A DNA stretch of 42,827 nt from Candidatus Polarisedimenticolia bacterium. GTDB taxonomy: Bacteria; Acidobacteriota; Polarisedimenticolia; Gp22-AA2; AA152. The translations under genes were made by a program, and so were the position numbers. The stretch is taken from positions 1 to 42,827 of the forward strand of contig DASTZC010000146.1 in NCBI GenBank assembly GCA_035764505.1, in the 5' to 3' direction. Shown here one piece after another: positions 1,337-14,945 of the stretch (position 1 is its first letter; the number at the start of each line of letters is the position of its first letter). The notes under the pieces were generated by a model that saw only the letters and a list, made by a program, of their open reading frames with translations, ran no database searches and had not been told where the DNA came from.

Positions 1337-2035
1337 TCAGACCGCCTGCATCCGACAGATCAGGTCCTGCCGCTCGGGGCCGGGATGGTGCAGGTCGGTG
1401 AGCGGATAGACGATGTGCTCTTCCTTGGCATTGTGCTCGCTGAGGAGCTCGATCAGATCGCCGCGCAGCGATTCGAGCTCGGCGACGCCCGGGATCGGCC
1501 AGCCAAGGACCGCCGCCATTCGATCGAGCAGCGACTCGATGATGCGATGCTCGTGTCGCATGACACCGGTGGGACCGCACTCACCCGAGTGCACCCTGCG
1601 CTCGAAGGCCGGGAACAGCACCTCCTCCTCCATGCGGATGTGATGCCGCAAGCCGGCGCTGAACTCCCGGAAGCGCTGCGCCGCCTCGTCCATCTTTCCT
1701 GACGCCAGCGCTTCTCCGTGGGCCGCCAGCAGCGAATCGAGGCGGTCGTGATCCCACTCCATGCAGGCCGCCGGGCTGACAGCTCTCCGATCGGAGGCCG
1801 CATGCCGTGTCAGAAGAACCGAGCTGCCTTCCGGTCCTTCCTCGAGGATGGACCATTCGTATTTCCCCGCCTGCTCCGACTGCAGCCGCTCCAGGACCTG
1901 CAGCCGCTCCCGACCGAGGATTAGAACCAGCTCTCCGCCTTCCGGAAGCAGCTTGAACTGCTCCAGGACGAGCGCCGGACGCCGCTCCGGCTCGATATTG
2001 CTCAAATTGATTGTGCTGCGGGTCACCTCGCTCAT
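1337..2035 (-). CDS. DUF2249 plus hemerythrin HHE-domain protein
   Basis: This is a 232-residue cytoplasmic protein. Residues about 8-75 resemble DUF2249, ending in the usual 'YEWSILEEGPE'-type segment. Residues about 88-225 form a hemerythrin-type four-helix bundle with the di-iron ligand pattern: DHD near the start, HHIRMEEE, RHEHR and EHNAKEEH. Such proteins bind oxygen or nitric oxide, or help repair iron-sulfur centres under nitrosative stress. A longer frame exists upstream, but I chose the ATG at 2035 because a strong AGGAGG-type ribosome site lies just before it and DUF2249 begins just after. An Fnr/Dnr-type palindrome lies about 100 bp upstream. That fits a role with the NnrS-like genes further on, though the link is inference. 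Confidence 0.9.
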   Translation of the reverse strand: MSEVTRSTINLSNIEPERRPALVLEQFKLLPEGGELVLILGRERLQVLERLQSEQAGKYEWSILEEGPEGSSVLLTRHAASDRRAVSPAACMEWDHDRLDSLLAAHGEALASGKMDEAAQRFREFSAGLRHHIRMEEEVLFPAFERRVHSGECGPTGVMRHEHRIIESLLDRMAAVLGWPIPGVAELESLRGDLIELLSEHNAKEEHIVYPLTDLHHPGPERQDLICRMQAV

Positions 2036-2129
2036 GGTCGCCTTCCTCCTTCGAGATTCGGGGAAAACTACCGCGAGCCGGGGCGGCCGTGTATGTCCCC
2101 CGTCATAATTCCACTCCCTGCCCTCGGAC

Positions 2130-2141
2130 TGATCTGGATCA
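2130..2141 (-). promoter_or_regulatory. Candidate Fnr/Dnr-type operator upstream of the hemerythrin gene
   Basis: The site reads TGATctggATCA, a perfect two-fold match to the TGAT-N4-ATCA core recognised by Fnr- and Dnr-type regulators. Its centre is 100 bp upstream of the chosen hemerythrin start. A matching site lies beside the Crp/Fnr-family gene at 7127-7138. Binding is inferred, not shown. Confidence 0.45.
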
Positions 2142-2228
2142 TAGGAGCCGGGATACGAAGGTCCTATGTTGCCCCGCGTCACGCCCTTTCCGCGGCCCGG
2201 TCCTGCCCAAGGGATGTATCGGCGCCTC

Positions 2229-3500
2229 CTAGAAACCGAGCGTCAGCTGCACGTAGCCCCAGTCGGAGGCGTCATCTCCACGGGTCGACTCGGCGAAGCG
2301 CCCCGGCATGAAGCGGCTGACTCCGATCTCCACCTTCGCCTTCTCCAGCCAGTCATAGCGGTAGAGGAGATCCACCTCGTCGCCGACGTCGTCGCCCGAC
2401 GCTCCGGTCGGATCGAATCCGAGGACGTTCCCCGAGGCATCCTGCCAGGGCCCGAAGCGCGACTCGAGGCGGAAGCGGTGCGCCTTCGCCAGGTAGAAAT
2501 GCTTTCCGTGGCCAAAGGAGATCCCCGCATAGGGGCTGTCGATGTTGCGCCACCCTTCGTAGTCGATGTAGCCGTAGAGGGGATGGTTGGTGGGGAAGAA
2601 ATTGAAGAACTGGTTCTGCTCGCCGTCGGTGTTGTCCTGGTCGCCGGTGGCGTAGTCGTAGCCCGCGAAAGCCCGCAGCTTCTTCGAGCTTCCCCAGGTC
2701 CAGCCGATTTGCGTTGCCGCCGCATTCGCGTCGAGATCGTCTCCGTGGAACTCGCCGCGCTCGAGCACCGCTTCCACCACGAAATCGAAGCCGCCGAAGC
2801 GATCCTTCACCCGGCCCCCGAGCGCGTAGACTTTCGAGGGCCCCAGGATCCCCGTTTCGCCAGCAACTTCGATCCGATCCGAGAACCCCAGGGCGTAACC
2901 CTCGTACTCGCCGCCCGGGCGCGGCCGCGTCTGCGTGTAGACTCCGAACAGGTCGCTGCCGTTGGTCGCGCCGGCCGAGACCCGGTTGGAGATCTCGGCC
3001 CACAACCCGTCCGCGGTGAAGCGCTCGCTCCCCCAGCGCACCCGGATGCCGTCGAACGATCGACCGACATTGTTCCAGTTGTAGTTGCCGATGAGCCGGT
3101 GCTCGCCGTAGAACCACTCCTGCCGGCCCACTGAGAATGAGAGCCCCTTGACGCCGAGGTTCTTCGCCTCCAGGTAGCCCTGGTGGATGTCGAGGTTCTT
3201 CTCGTTGGAGGCAGTGCTCGCCTCCTCGCCCCAGACGCGGGAGTCCTGCGCCTGCACGAAGACGCGGAAGTTGTCCTGGATTAGCGCTTCCACCCCGATG
3301 CGGAGCCGCATGAAGACCTGGCTCATCCGGTCGTCGGCGTCGTCGATGAGGTCCTGGTTGTCGCGCCATTCGGGACGCACCCGGGCTTCGCCGCTGATCT
3401 TCCATTGGACCGGCTTCTTCTCCTCTTCCTGGGCGGTAATTCCTGAAGGCAGCCAGAGGCTTGCAATCAGTCCGGCGAGCAGGATTCGCGTGATCCTCAT
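2229..3500 (-). CDS. Alginate-export-type outer-membrane beta-barrel protein
   Basis: The product has 423 residues with a clear signal peptide (MRITRILLAGLIASLW, cleavage near the Ala at 23). The mature part is rich in alternating aromatic and charged strands, as in an outer-membrane barrel, and ends in a terminal Phe (YVQLTLGF), the usual assembly signal. Segments such as 'SRVWGEE', 'GRQEWFYGEHRLIGNYNW' and 'ISFGHGKHFYLAKAHRFR' resemble the alginate export (AlgE-like) family. In many phyla that family covers porins of unknown substrate found near respiratory genes, so an alginate role is not implied. A GAGGAG ribosome site precedes the ATG. The gene stands between the hemerythrin gene and the Ca2+-ATPase with clear gaps, so it is probably its own transcript. 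Confidence 0.8.
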   Translation of the reverse strand: MRITRILLAGLIASLWLPSGITAQEEEKKPVQWKISGEARVRPEWRDNQDLIDDADDRMSQVFMRLRIGVEALIQDNFRVFVQAQDSRVWGEEASTASNEKNLDIHQGYLEAKNLGVKGLSFSVGRQEWFYGEHRLIGNYNWNNVGRSFDGIRVRWGSERFTADGLWAEISNRVSAGATNGSDLFGVYTQTRPRPGGEYEGYALGFSDRIEVAGETGILGPSKVYALGGRVKDRFGGFDFVVEAVLERGEFHGDDLDANAAATQIGWTWGSSKKLRAFAGYDYATGDQDNTDGEQNQFFNFFPTNHPLYGYIDYEGWRNIDSPYAGISFGHGKHFYLAKAHRFRLESRFGPWQDASGNVLGFDPTGASGDDVGDEVDLLYRYDWLEKAKVEIGVSRFMPGRFAESTRGDDASDWGYVQLTLGF

Positions 3501-7138: not shown

Positions 7139-7202
7139 TACACATCTTCAAGAGGTTGCCGCATGCTTACCCTCGATCCGCGCCGGCAAGGGGAGGATGT
7201 GG

Positions 7203-8327
7203 ATGGAAACCATGGTGCGAAGGATGGCGGGAGAGCCGGAGGGCGAGCCGAGGCTGCGGTTCGCCGCTGCGCCGCTGGTGGCAATCTGGGAGGTGACGCG
7301 AGCCTGCGATCTGGCCTGCATTCATTGCCGGGCTTCCGCGGTCCCGACCCGGGATCCGCAGGAGCTGACCACACAGCAGGGAGTCGACCTGCTGCGCGAG
7401 ATCAAGCGCTTCGGCAAACCGCTCCTCGTCTTCACCGGCGGCGACCCCCTGAAGCGCCCCGACCTGTTCGAGCTGATCGCCGCCGCGCGCGATCTGGGCC
7501 TGACCAGCTTCCTGAGTCCCAGCGGCACGCCGCTTTTGACCCATGCCGCCTTGCGCCAGGCCCGGCAGAGCGGGCTGACCGGGGTCTCGATCAGCCTCGA
7601 CGGCTCGACCGAGGCGCTGCACGACTCGATCCGCGGCGTGCCGGGGTCGTTCCGCTGGTGCATCGACGGTGCGGCCGCCGCCGTAGGGTTGCGCCTTGGG
7701 CTGCAGATCAACACCACCATCTCGCGCCGGAACCTGGAAGATCTGCCGGCCATGGCGGAGATGGTCGCGGCGCTGGAGGCGCGCCGCTGGACGCTGTTCC
7801 TGCTGGTGCCCACGGGACGGGCGCTCGCCTCGCACCAGATCTCGCCCCAGGAGTGCGAGCGGGTCTTCGAGTGGCTGGCCGAGATCGCTCCCCACTCCCG
7901 CTTCCGGATCAAGACGACGGAGGGTCCCCATTTCCGGCGCGTCGCCCTGCAGCGGGGCCTGGGCGCCGAAGGGTTGGGATCGCGCGGCGGCCGGTTCGTC
8001 TCCAGCATGAGCGACGGCTCGGGCTTCGTCTTCATCTCGGCCCGCGGTGAGATCTTTCCGAGCGGCTTTCTCCCGATGCCGGCCGGCAACGTGAAGCGCG
8101 ACTCGCTGGTGCGGGTCTACCGGGAGCACCCTCTCTTCCTGGCGCTGCGCGATTCCGATCGGCTCAAGGGGCGCTGCGGGCGCTGCGAGTTCCGCCGTAT
8201 CTGCGGCGGATCGCGGGCCCGGGCCTACGCCGCCACCGGCGATTACCTGGAAGAAGACCCCGCCTGCGCCTACCAACCGCCGCGCGGCACCGCGCCATCC
8301 GATGGTGCCATCCGCTGCACCGCATGA
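7203..8327 (+). CDS. Radical SAM/SPASM protein, NirJ/AhbD-like
   Basis: This is a 374-residue radical SAM enzyme. The SAM-binding 4Fe-4S motif CDLACIHC spans residues 35-42, followed by FTGGDPL (the GGE-type motif) and a TIM-barrel core. The C-terminal segment CGRCEFRRICGG...C is a SPASM/twitch-type auxiliary cluster motif. The closest groups I know are the NirJ/AhbD heme-modifying enzymes and a related uncharacterised radical SAM/SPASM family often found near denitrification genes, so a heme or peptide-modifying role is a guess. The ATG at 7197 abuts the AGGGGAGG ribosome site; the one at 7203 has normal spacing and is preferred. It is the first gene of a probable operon with the two NnrS-like genes, 52 bp before the next. 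Confidence 0.88.
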   Translation: METMVRRMAGEPEGEPRLRFAAAPLVAIWEVTRACDLACIHCRASAVPTRDPQELTTQQGVDLLREIKRFGKPLLVFTGGDPLKRPDLFELIAAARDLGLTSFLSPSGTPLLTHAALRQARQSGLTGVSISLDGSTEALHDSIRGVPGSFRWCIDGAAAAVGLRLGLQINTTISRRNLEDLPAMAEMVAALEARRWTLFLLVPTGRALASHQISPQECERVFEWLAEIAPHSRFRIKTTEGPHFRRVALQRGLGAEGLGSRGGRFVSSMSDGSGFVFISARGEIFPSGFLPMPAGNVKRDSLVRVYREHPLFLALRDSDRLKGRCGRCEFRRICGGSRARAYAATGDYLEEDPACAYQPPRGTAPSDGAIRCTA

Positions 8328-8379
8328 ACCTGAAGATGCCGCCCGCGTCGCGAGCGGCCTGACCGCCAAGGAGATTCTC

Positions 8380-10353
8380 ATGTTGATCGATCCGAAGATG
8401 ACGGTCGCCGAGATTTTGAGCGTCTGCCCCGCGGCCCGGGCGCCGCTCGCCACGCTGGGGCTGGATGCCTGCTGCGGCGGGAAGCACCCTCTGGAGTTCG
8501 CCTGCCGTGCCCATGGAGTGCCGGTGGAGACCGCGCTGGCAGCGATCGAGCGCGCCGCTTCCGCCGCGTCCACCCCCGGCATCGACCCTTCGATGAGCGT
8601 GCGTGAGGTGCTTGCGAAGTTTCCGGCAACCGTCGTGGTCTTCGAGCGCCACGGCCTGATGGGATGCGGCGGAGCGGCCGGTCCGGCGGAGCCGCTCGGG
8701 TGGTTCGCCAAGGTCCATCATGTCGACCCCGACACGCTCCTGCTGGAGCTGCGTGAGGCGGCCGCTTCGCCGGTCCCCGCGCCGGAGAGGACGGCGACGA
8801 AATCGGCGCAGGCGGCGGTAAACGCCTCGCAGGCCGACGGCCACGAGAACCTCTATCGCCGGTTCCTCAAGGCAGCCTTCCTGTTCACGTTCACCGGCGG
8901 CGCGACGCTGGGGGCGTGGGCCCTGATCGACATGGCGCTGCGCGGCAGGCTGGGAGGGCTGGGGCGCGGCATCATCCAGGTGCATGGCCACTATCAGCTC
9001 TTCGGTTGGGTGGCGCTGTTCGTCGTGGGGATCGCCTACCACATCCTGCCGCGCATGACCGGCATCCCGCTTCCCTCCTACCGGGCTGCTTCGCTTTCCT
9101 TCGTGCTCCTCGTCGGCGGGACGATCCTGCGCACAGCGCAGGCGCTCGACCCGTCGGAGCTGCGCACGGGGCTGCTGGCCACCGGCGCCCTGGCCGAGCT
9201 GGCCGGCTGCGCCCTGTTCGCCTGGACCATCGCGCGGATCCTGCGCGCGCAGGCGGGAGCGTGGCAGCCGTATCAGCATTACCTGCTCCTGGGCACCGGC
9301 TGGCTGATCGTCTCGTCGATCCTGAACCTGGCCCACGTCACCTACCTCGCTGTCCGCAGCGCGGCGGAGGTGCCTCCTCATCTGAACCTTCCTTTCCTGA
9401 CCGTCTTCCTGGTCGGCTTCGTAATCTCCTGGATCCTCGGGGTCTCGCTGCGGACGCTGCCGGTCTTCATGGGACTGAAGGCGAATCCCCGGCTGGCCGC
9501 GGCGCTGCCGATCCCGCTGGCGGCGTCGACCGCACTTCTGGCCGTGGGGGAAGGGATCTATCTGGCCGATGGCTCCGTCGCCGGGCGAATCCTCTTCGGG
9601 TGCGGCGGCCTCGGGCTCGCCGCGGCCTTCCTGCTTTTCGTGCGGGCGGTGGGAATCCTGGGGGCTTCGGGCGAGACGGAGCCGGGTCTCGACCGCCGCT
9701 ACGAGAAGTTCATCCGCCTCGGCTATGCCTGGCTGGCCATCTCGGCCCTGATGCTGGCGGCCTTCTCGCTGCTGGCGCTGGCGGGATACGGCATGGACCA
9801 TGCCCTGGTGGGCGCCTATCGCCATGCCCTGACGGTCGGGTTCATCACCACCATCATGATCGGCATGGCGGCACGCATCGTGCCGGTTTTCCGCGGGGTG
9901 GGCCTGCACTCGCCGCTGCTGCTGGAAGCTACCTTCTGGCTGCTGGCCGCCGGGAACCTGATCCGCGTCCTGTTCCAGTCACTCTCCGCCGCCTACGGCC
10001 CGACGGCCCTTCGCATCGCCGGCCTCTCCGGGATCCTGGAGCTGGCGGCGCTTCTCCTGTTCGGCTATAACCTCTGGCGGACGCTCGATGCCGCGACGGT
10101 CGAGACGCCGAAAGTCTCATGGCTCCCGCCCGTGGCGGCGGCGACGAAGGTCGGGGATCTTCTCCTCGCTTATCCCGGGCTCCTGCCGGTGTTCGTGAGC
10201 CACGGCTTCACGGCGCTCGCCAATCCCGTCATGCGCCGGACCGTGGCGAGGCAGGTCAGCCTCGGACAGGCCTGTCGCATGCACGGCGTCGACCTGGAGC
10301 GTTTCCTGAAGGAGCTTTCGGAGACCGCCGGGCGGCTGCGCGCGCAATCCTGA
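8380..10353 (+). CDS. NnrS-like membrane protein with N-terminal DUF542 and DUF1858-type domains
   Basis: The 657-residue protein combines small soluble domains with a membrane core. Residues 1-58 match the N-terminal domain of ScdA/RIC iron-sulfur repair proteins, including CCGGKH at 31-36. Residues about 68-127 are a DUF1858-like repeat with GCGG at 95-98. About twelve membrane helices (roughly 165-590) follow, with His-bearing helices such as VHGHYQLFGW, HYLLLGTGW and YRHALTVGF, as in NnrS and subunit I of heme-copper oxidases. The last 60 residues are another DUF1858-like repeat without the Cys motif. NnrS proteins relieve NO stress on metal centres. The ATG at 8380 follows AAGGAG with 6-base spacing; a longer frame would overlap the upstream gene. 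The next gene begins 8 bp downstream. Confidence 0.87.
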   Translation: MLIDPKMTVAEILSVCPAARAPLATLGLDACCGGKHPLEFACRAHGVPVETALAAIERAASAASTPGIDPSMSVREVLAKFPATVVVFERHGLMGCGGAAGPAEPLGWFAKVHHVDPDTLLLELREAAASPVPAPERTATKSAQAAVNASQADGHENLYRRFLKAAFLFTFTGGATLGAWALIDMALRGRLGGLGRGIIQVHGHYQLFGWVALFVVGIAYHILPRMTGIPLPSYRAASLSFVLLVGGTILRTAQALDPSELRTGLLATGALAELAGCALFAWTIARILRAQAGAWQPYQHYLLLGTGWLIVSSILNLAHVTYLAVRSAAEVPPHLNLPFLTVFLVGFVISWILGVSLRTLPVFMGLKANPRLAAALPIPLAASTALLAVGEGIYLADGSVAGRILFGCGGLGLAAAFLLFVRAVGILGASGETEPGLDRRYEKFIRLGYAWLAISALMLAAFSLLALAGYGMDHALVGAYRHALTVGFITTIMIGMAARIVPVFRGVGLHSPLLLEATFWLLAAGNLIRVLFQSLSAAYGPTALRIAGLSGILELAALLLFGYNLWRTLDAATVETPKVSWLPPVAAATKVGDLLLAYPGLLPVFVSHGFTALANPVMRRTVARQVSLGQACRMHGVDLERFLKELSETAGRLRAQS

Positions 10354-10361
10354 AGGAGCCG

Positions 10362-11693
10362 ATGAGTCCTGCGGAAACGCCGCCGGCGCGCGACCGGATC
10401 CCTCCGCGCCTGACTCCGGTGATCTATTTCCTCATGGCACACGCGGCGCTGCTCGCCGCCTTCGCCCTCGCCGTCGCGCACCCGGCCGAGGTGAGCGGCT
10501 ACTTCTACCAGCCCCGCATGATCGCGCTGGTCCATCTCATCACCCTTGGATGGATTACCGCCTCGATCCTGGGGTCCCTCTACGTGATCGGCCCGATGGC
10601 GCTGCGCAGCCCCATGCCGGAGGGGCGCGCCGATCTCATCGTGGCGCTCCTCTACGCCATCGGGCTGTGCGGGATGGTCTCGCACTTCTGGCTCAACGCT
10701 TACGGAGGTGCCGGCTGGGCGGCGCTTCTCGTCGTCGGCGCCGCGCTGCACGTCGGATTTCGGGCGCTGCGCAGCGTGCGGCAGGCGCCGGTGCAGCCGG
10801 CCGTCAAGCTCCATCTGCTCCTGGCGCTGGTCAACCTGGCACTGGCGGGCAGCCTCGGCATCCTTCTCGCCTTCGACAAGGCGCACCCTTTCCTACCGGC
10901 GATCGAGCTGGGCAACGTGATGGCGCACGCCCATCTCGCTGCCATCGGCTGGGTCGGAATGATGGTGATGGGGACGGGACTGCGCATGCTCCCGATGGTG
11001 CTGCCGGCGGCGATGCCCGCGGGGAAGCTGTCGATTCCCGGCGCGCTGCTCACCGAAGCGGGAATCCTCGGAGTGTCGGGCATCCTCATGCTCGGCAGCG
11101 CGGCGCTGGGAGGGTTCGCCCTGCTGGTTGCCGCCGGATTCGCCGTCTTCCTGGGTCAGGCGATCTGGATGCGCCGGCACCTCCGGCCCGCTCCGGCCGG
11201 GCTGCCGCGCCCCGATCTCGGCGTGTGGCACGTGCTGCAGGCGCTTGTCTATCTGTTACTGGCGGTCGCTCTGGGAATCTTCCTGGCTTTCACGCCGGAG
11301 TCGGATCTCACCTACCGGCTGGCTCCGGTGTACGGGGTGGCAGGCTTGCTGGGGTTTTACGGACAGCTGGTGCTGGGGATCGAATCCCGGATCCTTCCCA
11401 TGTTCGCGGCCTATTACGCCAATCGAAGAGCCTGCGGCGCCGGGCCGGTGATCCAGCCGCACGAGATGCCGCGACGCGGCCTGCAGACGGCGGTCTTCGC
11501 CTTGTGGAGCGCGGGCTTGCCGGTTCTGGCGGCGGGAATGTCCCTGGCGCGGCCCGGTCTTTGCCGCACCGGCGCCTCGTTGCTGCTCCTTGCGGCCCTC
11601 GCGCTGGCGATCAACCAGGCCCGCGTCCTGGCGCATCTGTTCCGGGGAAAAGCATCCCGGCCGCTTAGCGAGACGGCGGGCGGGTTGTCATGA
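10362..11693 (+). CDS. NnrS/heme-copper-oxidase subunit I-like membrane protein
   Basis: The 443-residue protein is almost wholly membrane-embedded, with about twelve helices. Repeated His-Gly-Trp helices (LVHLITLGW, MAHAHLAAIGW) resemble those of the upstream protein, so the two are probably paralogous folds. The family is annotated variously as NnrS-like or as cbb3-type subunit I-like. I see no convincing full CuB ligand set, so activity as an NO or O2 reductase is not claimed; heme binding is likely. The ATG at 10362 is preceded by AAGGAG inside the stop region of the upstream gene, showing tight coupling. It is the last gene of the operon and is followed by the tandem dispersed repeats. 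Confidence 0.85.
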   Translation: MSPAETPPARDRIPPRLTPVIYFLMAHAALLAAFALAVAHPAEVSGYFYQPRMIALVHLITLGWITASILGSLYVIGPMALRSPMPEGRADLIVALLYAIGLCGMVSHFWLNAYGGAGWAALLVVGAALHVGFRALRSVRQAPVQPAVKLHLLLALVNLALAGSLGILLAFDKAHPFLPAIELGNVMAHAHLAAIGWVGMMVMGTGLRMLPMVLPAAMPAGKLSIPGALLTEAGILGVSGILMLGSAALGGFALLVAAGFAVFLGQAIWMRRHLRPAPAGLPRPDLGVWHVLQALVYLLLAVALGIFLAFTPESDLTYRLAPVYGVAGLLGFYGQLVLGIESRILPMFAAYYANRRACGAGPVIQPHEMPRRGLQTAVFALWSAGLPVLAAGMSLARPGLCRTGASLLLLAALALAINQARVLAHLFRGKASRPLSETAGGLS

Positions 11694-11735: not shown

Positions 11736-11820
11736 TTACCCTTACGGATTGAGCCGGGCCCGGAGTCTTGGCTTCCCCATGATCAAGTGTCGGCCGTTGA
11801 CGCGCGGCCGCTCCTCGTCG
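11736..11820 (+). repeat. Dispersed hairpin repeat, copy 1 (truncated)
   Basis: This is the first unit of an 89-bp tandem pair between two convergent operons. It shares with copy 2 a left flank (from TTACC through GGAGTCTTGGCTTCCCCATG) and the first half of the repeat core (AAGTGYCGGCCGTTGACGCG), including a GCGGCCGC block. The right half of the core is largely lost. Confidence 0.8.
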
Positions 11821-11823
11821 TGA

Positions 11824-11935
11824 GCTTACCTAGCGGATTGGGCCGGGTCCGGAGTCTTGGCTTCCCCATGATCAAGTGCCGGCCGTTGACGCGCGGCCGC
11901 TGTTTGCCGCCGCGTCCAACGGTGCCCCTGCCTAC
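11824..11935 (+). repeat. Dispersed hairpin repeat, copy 2 (full core)
   Basis: This unit has the full core, which also occurs at 34.5 and 34.9 kb. The arms CCGTTGACGCG (11883-11893) and CGCGTCCAACGG (11911-11922) pair over 11 bp with one bulged base and a 17-base loop; an alternative small hairpin is CGGCCG-N8-CGGCCG. It may serve as a terminator between the convergent operons. It has no coding sense: the frames that cross it are shadows. Confidence 0.82.
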
Positions 11936-11943
11936 TGAGAGCT

Positions 11944-13350
11944 TCACTGTGTCTTGTCCGTTCCGTAGCGCTCTTTGTAGAAGGCGTCGATGCGGGCCCG
12001 ATCCTCGGGCGACATTCCCTTCTTCCAGGCATGCTCGGGTGAATCGAGCACCGCCTTGATCACCTTCGCCACCTCCGGATCGCCGTGGCCCACCTCCTGC
12101 GCCTTGGGGAGGAAGTCGAAGTAGAAGCGCTCCGCCACCTCGAAGAAGCCGTGCCACTGGGTGTAGTCGGGTCCCTGCATCGAGACTCCCATGCGCGCCC
12201 GCCGCCCCTCGTGGTGCCACAGCCGGTAGAAGCTCCACTCCAGCTCGTCGTCGAAGGGGGTCGGGGTGAGGTGATGTCCGGCCCGCAGCGCGTCCATCAC
12301 CCGCTGCGCCGGGAAGGCGAACTTGTCGTTCCACATCGTCACGGCACCGTCGTACTGAGTGTAGAAAGCGCTCACGAAGTCGGGGGCGTGGCAGTTCTTG
12401 CAGACGTCGGCCATCGCTTCCCGCTTCCCTTCCCAGTTCTCCAGCTTCTTGCTCACCACCGGCCGCAGGGTCCAGGAGATGCGCGCCCCCACGTCGTGCG
12501 TCACCTTCTGGTTGGGCGTCGCCGACATGTGGCAGGTGGCGCAGGTGGGCGCCGCGGTGTAGTCCTGGCCGACCACCCAGTGCTCCGCGTCGAGGTTCAT
12601 CTCGGCGGTGCGCGTGTAGAAGGCGATACCGTGCTTCGACTCGTCATAGATCTCGATCTGCGGGTGGTCCGGGCCCATGTGGCACTTGCCGCACACCTGC
12701 GGCTGGCGCGCCATCGCCTTGCTGAAGACATGCCGCGAATGACAGGCGGAGCAGGAGCCGTTCGAGCCGTCCAGGTTCACCCGCCCGATTCCGGTGTTCG
12801 GCCAGGTGTTCGGATCGAGCATCGGCTTGCCGTTCTTGTCCTTGCGGATGCCGCCGCCGGAGTCCTTCAGGAAGGCCACGGTGGATCCGTGGCACTGTTT
12901 GCAGCCGTTGGCGGCGATGATCGGCCCCTCGATCACCTCGCCCATCACGTTGTCGAGGCTGCCGATGAAGCCCGCCGCCTTGGAATGGTGCGACGCCATG
13001 AACTCCTTGGTGATGTCCTGGTGGCAGCCGCCGCAGTCCTTGGGGCTCACGACGGTCGCGATCAGCTTCCCCTCGTGGCGGAAGGCGTCGGCGTCGGTCT
13101 CGTCGGCCCGGTGGCACTCGTAGCAGCCCACTCCGAGCGTGGCGTGCTTGCTGTCGCGCCACTGCGCCGCGATGACCGGCGTCTTGTCCTCGTGGCAGTC
13201 GTAGCATTTCCTGCTGTCGGCCCCCATCACCGGCTCCGGCCTCGGCTGCACCCGCTGCTTGCCTCCCTCCACCCAGGCCACGACGAGCAGCGCGCCCAGG
13301 AAGAGGAACGACAGGGCCGCCACGAGCTTCCGCTTGAAATCCAGATTCAT
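11944..13350 (-). CDS. Octaheme c-type cytochrome, hydroxylamine oxidoreductase (HAO)-like
   Basis: The 468-residue protein has eight CxxCH heme sites, starting at residues 49, 76, 106, 150, 200, 220, 270 and 317. The N-terminal segment 7-27 is a membrane anchor or signal. Family signatures include GRVNLDGSNGSCSACH, GPDHPQIEIYDESKHG and, after the last heme, HEGRRAR...PDYxxWHG. This is the HAO/hydrazine dehydrogenase/octaheme reductase group, which interconverts hydroxylamine, NO, nitrite or hydrazine outside the cytoplasm. A Tyr at 396 lies where, from memory, the P460 cross-linking Tyr may fall; only an alignment can tell oxidative from reductive type. It starts 9 bp after the cytochrome b gene, with GAGGTG before the ATG, so it is probably the electron partner of the Rieske/cytochrome b pair. 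Confidence 0.9.
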   Translation of the reverse strand: MNLDFKRKLVAALSFLFLGALLVVAWVEGGKQRVQPRPEPVMGADSRKCYDCHEDKTPVIAAQWRDSKHATLGVGCYECHRADETDADAFRHEGKLIATVVSPKDCGGCHQDITKEFMASHHSKAAGFIGSLDNVMGEVIEGPIIAANGCKQCHGSTVAFLKDSGGGIRKDKNGKPMLDPNTWPNTGIGRVNLDGSNGSCSACHSRHVFSKAMARQPQVCGKCHMGPDHPQIEIYDESKHGIAFYTRTAEMNLDAEHWVVGQDYTAAPTCATCHMSATPNQKVTHDVGARISWTLRPVVSKKLENWEGKREAMADVCKNCHAPDFVSAFYTQYDGAVTMWNDKFAFPAQRVMDALRAGHHLTPTPFDDELEWSFYRLWHHEGRRARMGVSMQGPDYTQWHGFFEVAERFYFDFLPKAQEVGHGDPEVAKVIKAVLDSPEHAWKKGMSPEDRARIDAFYKERYGTDKTQ

Positions 13351-13359
13351 GCATGCACC

Positions 13360-14478
13360 TCAGTGAGTGGCGACGGCTTCCCAGATCGTCAGGACGACGA
13401 GGGCGCACACCGCTGCCGTCCCGATCCAGACGGAAAGCTCGCTGCCCGGACGGCGCCGGCGGATCGCCGCGTCGATGAAGGGCCAGATCAGGGTCAAGAA
13501 TCCCACGAAGCCGATGGAGAGGACGGCCCAGGTCAGCCCCGTCAGCTTCAGCCAGCGGAAGGTCCAGAAGAAGTACCACTCCGGCTTGATGTGCGCCGGC
13601 GTGACGAGCGGGTTGGCCTTCTCCGCCAATTCTGTCGGGAAGATGACCGTCAGGCAGGTCAGCAGAAAGGCCAGGGAGAGGCCGATGATGATCTCGGTCA
13701 TGATGTGATCGGGAAAAAACGGGAAGGTCTTCTTGCCCGCCGGGGCCTTGAGCCCCTTCGCCTCGAACTCGAACTCGGTCACCCCGTGCAGCCGCATCAG
13801 CATCAGGTGCGCGCCGATCAGCAGCGTCATCAGCGTCGGCAGGACGCCGATGTGCAGGATGAAGAAGCGCGACAGCGTCTCCTTGCCCACCACGTCGCCG
13901 CCGCGCAGCATTCGCCCCAGCAGCGGGCCTATCCCGGGCACCGCCTCGGTAAGGTTCGAAGCGACCGTGGCTCCCCAGTACGAAAGCTGCTCGTAGACCA
14001 GCGAGTAGCCGGTGAAGCCGAAGAACAGCGTCACGCCCAGCAGGGCGACGCCGATCATCCAGTTGGCCTCGCGCGGCTTGCGGTAAGCGCCGGTGAAGAA
14101 GACGCGCATCATGTGCAGGATCACCGCCGCGATCATCAGGTTCGAGGACCAGCGGTGCAGGCTGCGAACGAACCATCCGAAGGGGACGACGTCCTTGACG
14201 TGCTGCACCGACTCGTAGGCGCGGGCCGGATCGGGGACGTAGTAGAAGGACAGGAGGATTCCGGTCACCGCCTGGAGCGCGAACAGAAGTGCCGGCGTCC
14301 CGCCAAGACACCACCACCAGTGCTTCAGGTGATTGGGGACCGGCTCGTTGGAAAGGCCGCGCAGCGCCTCCCAATCGACCGGAAAGCGATCCTGCAGCCA
14401 GCGGCCCCAGGAAGTCGTCGGCGGCAGGGTTCCGGCGGCCGGCGCCTCTGCGGAATCTGAAGAGCCGTGACGGCTCAC
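13360..14478 (-). CDS. Cytochrome b (b6-type) fused to subunit IV
   Basis: This 372-residue integral membrane protein is the quinol-oxidising core of a bc/b6f-type complex. The four heme b ligands appear as H108/H122 and H209/H224. The 14-residue gap in the second pair is the b6 pattern, not the mitochondrial one. C57 in WCLGG aligns with the Cys of plant and Bacillus b6 proteins that holds the extra heme c(n). The C-terminal part is subunit IV-like, with PEWYFF of the Qo site, and is fused instead of separate. The start is GTG at 14478, overlapping the Rieske stop by 4 bases (GTGA), a sign of translational coupling. The multiheme cytochrome follows 9 bp downstream. No separate cytochrome f or c1 gene is visible, so the octaheme protein may take that place. 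Confidence 0.94.
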   Translation of the reverse strand: MSRHGSSDSAEAPAAGTLPPTTSWGRWLQDRFPVDWEALRGLSNEPVPNHLKHWWWCLGGTPALLFALQAVTGILLSFYYVPDPARAYESVQHVKDVVPFGWFVRSLHRWSSNLMIAAVILHMMRVFFTGAYRKPREANWMIGVALLGVTLFFGFTGYSLVYEQLSYWGATVASNLTEAVPGIGPLLGRMLRGGDVVGKETLSRFFILHIGVLPTLMTLLIGAHLMLMRLHGVTEFEFEAKGLKAPAGKKTFPFFPDHIMTEIIIGLSLAFLLTCLTVIFPTELAEKANPLVTPAHIKPEWYFFWTFRWLKLTGLTWAVLSIGFVGFLTLIWPFIDAAIRRRRPGSELSVWIGTAAVCALVVLTIWEAVATH

Positions 14479-14945
14479 AGCGTGATGATCTCCTCGTATT
14501 CCAGGAAAAGGTTCTCACCCACCTGCGCCACCTCGAAGCGCTTCAGGTGCTTCCCTTCGTCCGCCGGCGGGCCGGAGACGGCCGTGCCGGTGTTGTCGAA
14601 GACGCCGTTGTGGCAAGGGCAGACGAAGCGGGAGGCCGCGGTGTCGTAGTGGACCTTACAGCCGAGGTGGGGACAGACATCGGAGAGCGCCACGATTCCT
14701 TCGCCGGTGTCGGTCACCAGCGCGGTATTGCCGTCGGGAAGCTCGAAGGGAAGCCCCTTGCCGGGGGCGAGATCGGAGGCGGGCGCGAGAAAGATGCGGC
14801 GCCGGCGGCGCAGTCCTTTCAGCGGGAAGAGATACCGCAAGGCGATTCCGCCCAGTGCCGCGGCGACGGAAGCCAAGCCTGTCACCATGGCGGCCCGGAC
14901 GAGAAAGCCTCGACGAGTCACGGAAGTTCCGGGTCTTCCGTCCAT
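14475..14945 (-). CDS. Rieske 2Fe-2S protein of a bc-type complex
   Basis: The 156-residue protein starts with a Tat-type signal anchor (RR at 11-12, then a hydrophobic helix to about 40). The Rieske domain follows, with CPHLGC at 91-96 and CPCHNG at 109-114. C91, H93, C109 and H112 should bind the cluster, and C96 and C111 should form the disulfide. It passes electrons from quinol at cytochrome b to a c-type cytochrome. A GAGGAG ribosome site lies before the ATG. It is the first gene of the operon Rieske, cytochrome b, octaheme cytochrome. The length is typical for short b6f/Bacillus-type Rieske subunits. Confidence 0.95.
   Translation of the reverse strand: MDGRPGTSVTRRGFLVRAAMVTGLASVAAALGGIALRYLFPLKGLRRRRRIFLAPASDLAPGKGLPFELPDGNTALVTDTGEGIVALSDVCPHLGCKVHYDTAASRFVCPCHNGVFDNTGTAVSGPPADEGKHLKRFEVAQVGENLFLEYEEIITL

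Follow-up and report, generated by a model that had tools for sequence, protein, structure and literature searches.

What accepts the electron of a Rieske protein when a cytochrome b operon carries an octaheme cytochrome in the place of cytochrome f or c1? This question is raised by three minus-strand genes in a 42,827-nucleotide stretch of DNA from Candidatus Polarisedimenticolia bacterium (contig DASTZC010000146.1, analyzed as a whole and called the window here), which encode, in this order, a Rieske protein, a cytochrome b, and an octaheme c-type cytochrome (OHC) of the hydroxylamine oxidoreductase (HAO) superfamily (Table 1). The window belongs to a draft genome of 4.46 Mb in 288 contigs that is 100% complete. 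Our analysis shows that the trio is real and conserved, and that its products probably form a physical complex. Judging from its residues and its genomic setting, we also think it reasonably likely that this complex is a menaquinol-oxidizing Rieske/cytochrome b enzyme whose c-subunit is itself a membrane-anchored octaheme reductase of nitrite (or of NO or hydroxylamine).

The three-gene operon recurs in several phyla

The Rieske and cytochrome b genes overlap by 4 nt, and a gap of 9 nt separates cytochrome b from the OHC gene. The coordinates, strand, and Pfam matches agree with the tight operon described in the initial annotation, which also placed the octaheme protein in the position of cytochrome f or c1. 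That placement is supported by the conservation of the unit described below. No cytochrome f- or c1-like gene was seen adjoining the window cytochrome b (cytochrome c1 and cytochrome f models were not run against the genome). A promoter scan found nothing, and terminator matches were no better than chance.

We surveyed 297 genomes of the phylum, 85 of which had an OHC-type match at 1e-30, and the surroundings of the strong matches were scanned with profiles built in this analysis. Cytochrome b lay directly upstream in 27 of 61 usable strong OHC genes; the gene order, which the initial annotation had asked to be looked for in other genomes, is thus kept there. A Rieske gene was also found in 23 of these 27 loci, in every case (23/23) on the same strand as cytochrome b and OHC, with mostly short gaps. 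The 27 loci span Acidobacteriota, Myxococcota (L024, L025), Gemmatimonadota (L028), Sumerlaeota (L026), and UBP7 (L027). Chance adjacency is excluded because trios with proteins 54 to 79% identical to those of the window recur in relatives, and contamination is an unlikely source of the trio given that G010, a relative from the same order, has it as well, with 79% identity in OHC. The pairing had been known to the initial annotation only from anammox bacteria. Recurrence in our survey, together with the report of the trio in Caldithrix abyssi (PMC5317091), rules out that it is confined to this genome or to anammox bacteria; it is widespread in Acidobacteriota, for which a limited search of the open-access literature found no description of it.

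The loci with cytochrome b are also linked to nitrate reduction. A napA gene was present within 3 kb in 14 of the 27 loci with cytochrome b versus 1 of the 34 without. The other 13 had no napA within 3 kb, some of them being cut by contig ends. The NapA of L024 scored 993 and 960 bits, above curated cutoffs, and a NapD precedes it. This linkage, along with the NnrS/RIC genes beside the window operon, supports the connection to nitrogen oxides that had been suggested for the octaheme protein. Among the OHC genes without cytochrome b, those of L038, L138, and L140 encode soluble proteins and are followed by a gene for a 5-heme protein of ~500 amino acids. This protein, which is NrfH-like in L038, may be a quinol dehydrogenase partner of another kind.

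A membrane anchor co-varies with the cytochrome b partner

The OHC proteins encoded beside cytochrome b begin with M.L..K(R), followed by a hydrophobic core and V..E, with no clear cleavage site, whereas the N terminus of the 34 OHC proteins without cytochrome b resembles a cleavable signal peptide. The anchor motif was present in 27/27 of the former versus 0/34 of the latter. In a 65-protein tree, the cytochrome b label changed 7 times, with at least 5 of these changes forced by starred branches, and none of 500 shuffles gave a number as low. The closest relatives without cytochrome b (L029/L033 and L034), in which OHC is 72 to 74% identical to that of the window, also lack the anchor. Because the anchor occurs only where cytochrome b adjoins, over at least five changes, its co-variation with the partner supports the existence of a physical three-subunit complex.

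An AlphaFold model of OHC (8-row alignment; mean pLDDT, 50.7) places a long helix at residues 3 to 31 with a pLDDT of about 80. The eight-heme, HAO-like protein with an N-terminal anchor that had been predicted was recovered in the eight CXXCH motifs, the HAO family matches among solved structures, and the anchor motif. Pairwise distances across 22 loci were correlated between OHC and cytochrome b (r = 0.95) and between OHC and Rieske (r = 0.84), with the former correlation also reflecting, in part, common descent. OHC is a candidate for the c-type subunit that would take the Rieske electron; its gene is adjacent in 27 loci, and its anchor co-varies with the partner.

Rieske and cytochrome b features are compatible with menaquinol oxidation

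In the Rieske protein, C91, H93, and C96 as well as C109, C111, and H112 are invariant in 22 operon homologs, comprising the two Cys and two His ligands and the disulfide Cys pair. The Ser and Tyr of high-potential Rieske proteins are replaced by G114 and F116 in 22/22 homologs. Given the reported effects of these residues on the Rieske potential (PMC12954380), the Gly/Phe replacement predicts a low potential, which would be fit for menaquinol.

The His pairs of the window cytochrome b are H108/H122 and H209/H224, with 14 residues between the second pair. These four residues and the PEW of the PEWY motif are invariant in 24/24 homologs, and the next residue is Tyr in 10 and Phe in 14. The assignment to the b6 type had relied on the 14-residue spacing and on C57 at the position of the heme c_n Cys. 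Both are present in the window; as a family trait C57 did not hold, since 8 of the 24 homologous cytochrome b proteins have Cys there and 16 have Ala. Heme c_n therefore appears not to be required by this cytochrome b family. The Cys/Ala difference at C57 tracks PEWY/PEWF among the window and its homologs (including L028, L035, L048, and L113 to L125), except in L035/L036. This variation is a natural experiment on heme c_n inside one operon family.

The octaheme protein lacks the cross-link tyrosine of oxidative enzymes

The matches of OHC in the PDB were 4qo5 (5.9e-41), HAO (1.5e-20), other HAO-like proteins, and hydrazine dehydrogenase (HDH). A profile search against the PDB found 4qo5 at 4e-71, and octaheme nitrite and tetrathionate reductase (ONR/OTR) structures were absent from its matches at E ≤ 0.001. 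The curated HDH model scored OHC at 84 bits, far below its cutoff of 900. We mapped HAO positions through the N. europaea HAO sequence from the PDB alignments. Asp and His occupy the D228/H229 positions in all 63 rows compared, and the position of HAO Tyr467 is Q, H, or W in the readable close homologs and Tyr in none of them. Y396 had been put forward as the P460 cross-link Tyr. The alignment rules this out, given that Y396 aligns with HAO W465 and Tyr467 aligns with Q398, and because Y396 is not the cross-link residue, the argument for an oxidative enzyme feeding electrons to the quinone pool is largely lost. Loss of the Tyr cross-link has been treated as a mark of reductive enzymes (PMC8940962, PMC12758564), and since no homolog has Tyr at this position, the reductive direction would be favored for OHC. 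The position of HAO Y334 is an invariant Arg in OHC (R296), a residue that might assist in binding nitrite or another anion.

A proposed mechanism and its alternatives

We infer a Q-cycle mechanism in which quinol would be oxidized at the Qo site (PEWY) of cytochrome b. One electron would be recycled via the b hemes, probably with the participation of a heme c_n, so that a proton gradient builds up, and the other would pass from the low-potential Rieske cluster through the octaheme chain to the five-coordinate heme 4, where nitrite would be reduced to ammonium or to NO or hydroxylamine. Since the genome has no recognizable NapA, NarG, NirK, NrfA, or Hcp, we propose that the window organism would use nitrite or NO that other organisms produce. 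In its fullest form, this reading describes an electrogenic quinol:nitrite (or NO) oxidoreductase that is complete in itself and occurs widely in Acidobacteriota as well as in several other phyla. In it, the Rieske protein would donate directly to the catalytic octaheme subunit, and one three-subunit complex would combine the Q-cycle with terminal reduction, with no diffusible cytochrome c. We advance that form tentatively.

Several points weigh against the interpretation of the trio as a nitrite-reducing complex. The AlphaFold model of OHC is too poor (pLDDT, 50.7) for docking of the trio, and the Fisher P value for the anchor (about 6e-18) ignores relatedness and applies to a motif that was defined after the sequences had been inspected. 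The napless loci, that of the window included, have no clustered nitrate reductase to supply nitrite. The active site differs from that of HAO, given the invariant Arg in place of Y334, so the substrate would not be readable from the residues. OHC could also simply be a relay of electrons to soluble cytochromes.

The relay idea can be extended to a protein that is an electron conduit only, a many-heme stand-in for cytochrome c1 or f that passes electrons to soluble cytochromes, to NapM/NapA, or to outside acceptors without any nitrogen chemistry. Many Rieske/cytochrome b complexes have multiheme subunits, and multiheme partners of cytochrome b as such are not special in this genome, given that three more cytochrome b clusters pair with a 9-heme protein (L074, C112), an 8-heme protein of 962 amino acids with a Rieske protein (L075, C266), and an 18-heme protein (L076, C85). 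The surroundings of cytochrome b in L074 and L076 showed no Rieske motif. Where nap genes are present, the electrons could end up on a tetraheme NapM-like protein and NapA. However, a NapA above the cutoff was not found in the genome of the window, the HAO active-site Asp/His pair is retained in all rows compared, and the soluble, signal peptide-bearing OHC versions without cytochrome b retain the same active-site residues. We consider a conduit without catalysis unlikely, but a serious candidate.

It is also rather unlikely, in our estimate, that the genes are adjacent without their products forming a complex, such that a Rieske/cytochrome b enzyme and a separate octaheme enzyme would be joined by diffusible cytochromes. 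The Caldithrix study prefers a NapM mediator (PMC5317091), and many OHC homologs have no Rieske/cytochrome b genes nearby, but the restriction of the anchor to loci with an adjoining cytochrome b, over at least five changes, argues against separate enzymes, and the surroundings of the window operon showed no NapM-like gene of its own. Reverse flow, in which OHC would oxidize hydroxylamine (or NO) and feed the quinone pool or drive an uphill reduction, had been raised in the initial annotation; it is permitted in principle by the arrangement and would suit a member of the HAO superfamily. We regard it as highly improbable, given that the cross-link Tyr of oxidative HAO and HDH is missing in every homolog and that the observed linkage is to nitrate reduction genes (Amo genes were outside the search).

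Genomic neighborhood of the operon

In the genome of the window, NapA, NarG, NirK, and Hcp had no match over curated cutoffs. The single match to the NrfA family (PF02335) is limited to 60 of 438 positions and falls in a 777-amino-acid frame that is not NrfA-like, and the single NapC/NrfH-type match lies inside the 18-heme frame of another cytochrome b cluster. Positions 7197 to 11693 hold a conserved unit, also present in L057 (same genus), that consists of the radical SAM protein, the NnrS/RIC/DUF1858 fusion, and the polytopic membrane protein (Table 1). This NnrS cluster and the OHC operon are convergent, and the intergenic region between them contains a 73-nt direct repeat (11740 to 11812 and 11829 to 11901; 93% identical; spacing, 89). 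The neighboring genes point to nitrogen oxides and to NO stress, and nitrite, NO, and hydroxylamine would all fit as the OHC substrate.

Elsewhere in the genome, a second, distant HAO-like multiheme gene (L031, 5814 to 6620; G000:C177) is cut by a contig end, with L050 and L053 being related. Its homologs in G002 and G003 are 11- to 12-heme proteins followed by an 8-heme open reading frame (ORF). As for a cytochrome f or c1 encoded elsewhere that might serve the window cytochrome b, the three other cytochrome b clusters have multiheme proteins of their own, and a putative alternative complex III is suggested by an ORF that resembles ActD and lies close to a terminal oxidase (L078; read from the sequence, with no family search).

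Table 1. Features of the window discussed in the text, with coordinates and supporting observations
Feature	Coordinates	Strand	Observations
Rieske [2Fe-2S] protein	14475..14945	minus	156 aa; Tat-type N terminus (TRRGFL), membrane helix, CPHLGC...CPCHNG; Pfam Rieske 8.5e-14
Cytochrome b	13360..14478	minus	372 aa, GTG start; b6-like N-terminal part and subunit IV-like part with PEWY in one chain; Pfam Cytochrome_B 1.8e-52, Cytochrom_B_C 2.8e-9
OHC, HAO superfamily, reductive type (predicted)	11944..13350	minus	468 aa; 8 CXXCH; Pfam Multi-haem_cyto 3.1e-24
OHC N-terminal membrane anchor, ~residues 4-30	13261..13341	minus	Anchor motif and predicted long helix
OHC fourth CXXCH (C150-H154)	12889..12903	minus	Corresponds, from its place among the eight motifs, to the HAO catalytic heme; putative catalytic role, by analogy with HAO
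OHC D228-H229	12664..12669	minus	Aligns with HAO active-site D267/H268; H229 is V in 4qo5
OHC Q398 codon	12157..12159	minus	Aligns with HAO cross-link Tyr467
NnrS-like membrane protein with ScdA/RIC N-terminal and DUF1858 domains	8302..10353	plus	Domain matches; homologs near OHC gene in L033 (2217-4181) and L057 (1520-3472)
Radical SAM/SPASM protein TIGR04053 (heme b/d1-type maturase relative)	7197..8327	plus	442 bits (cutoff, 395); homologs near OHC gene in L033, L034, L057
Polytopic membrane protein, start uncertain	10377..11693	plus	No Pfam match; conserved beside NnrS; 67% identical ORF in L057
Outer membrane porin, Alginate_exp family	2229..3500	minus	Pfam 3.4e-47; closest homologs (57-58% identity) directly adjoin OHC gene in L033, L034
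Hemerythrin and DUF2249 protein	1337..2182	minus	Pfam 4.3e-19 and 7.7e-8

Comparison with known systems

The window cytochrome b resembles that of cytochrome b6f in the 14 residues between the helix D His residues, in C57 at the place of heme c_n, and in PEWY. It differs in that the b6 and subunit IV parts are fused on one 372-amino-acid chain, in that no cytochrome f-like gene was seen in the operon, and in the replacement of C57 by Ala in 16/24 homologs. Like HAO and HDH, OHC has eight CXXCH motifs and counterparts of D267/H268, but Q398 stands at the place of Tyr467. The reductive HAO-like proteins, such as epsilonHao and Kuenenia HAOr (presumably PDB 6h5l), have in common with OHC the eight hemes, the Asp-His pair, and the lack of a cross-link Tyr, whereas sequence identity is low and the HAO Y334 position is the invariant Arg in OHC. 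The best match among solved structures, 4qo5, has the same PN.G.GRVN.DGS segment between hemes 4 and 5, but has Val at the position of H229 and differs in the motif around Q398. This octaheme cytochrome, presumably the one described from Ignicoccus hospitalis by Parey et al. 2016, is not known to us to be linked to a Rieske/cytochrome b pair. By sequence, OHC fits the epsilonHao type, a member of the HAO family without the Tyr cross-link, with a fold that was not modeled well.

Respiratory nitrite ammonification is usually wired via the quinol dehydrogenases NrfH and NapC, which conserve no energy. If our proposal is true, a bc-type complex with a nitrite-reducing c-subunit would make this step energy-conserving and unite complex III and a terminal reductase in one enzyme, and Acidobacteriota without NrfA or NirK would gain a nitrite sink that is missed by gene surveys. 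It would also become possible to test the long-standing idea that the early acceptors for Rieske proteins were multiheme cytochromes.

The known system closest in gene order is that of Caldithrix abyssi, in which genes for Rieske, cytochrome b, and epsilonHao (Cabys_2558, Cabys_2557, and Cabys_2556) are consecutive by the nap cluster (PMC5317091). As in the window, the same trio occurs in the same order with an HAO-like octaheme protein that lacks the Tyr, and quinol oxidation feeding nitrite reduction was proposed, with electron flow to epsilonHao considered to occur via NapM or directly (PMC5317091). The napM/napA linkage in C. abyssi resembles the napA linkage in 14 loci of our survey, whereas nap genes are absent from the window operon and no NapA above the cutoff occurs in the genome of the window. 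The Kuenenia stuttgartiensis complex Kuste4569-4574 likewise includes a b6-like cytochrome b, a Rieske protein, and an HAO-like octaheme cytochrome; all of its subunits were reported to comigrate, and nitrite reduction was proposed for it (PMC12954380). That complex has a separate cytochrome b and subunit IV as well as an extra multiheme c-type cytochrome and an NAD(P) oxidoreductase, whereas the window operon has three genes only and a fused cytochrome b. The Kuenenia Rieske protein has kept the Ser and Tyr and has a potential of +303 mV, in contrast to the Gly and Phe at these positions in the window. Relative to these systems, what is new here is the breadth of the trio, its three-gene form without nap genes, and the co-variation of the anchor, which argues for a physical complex.

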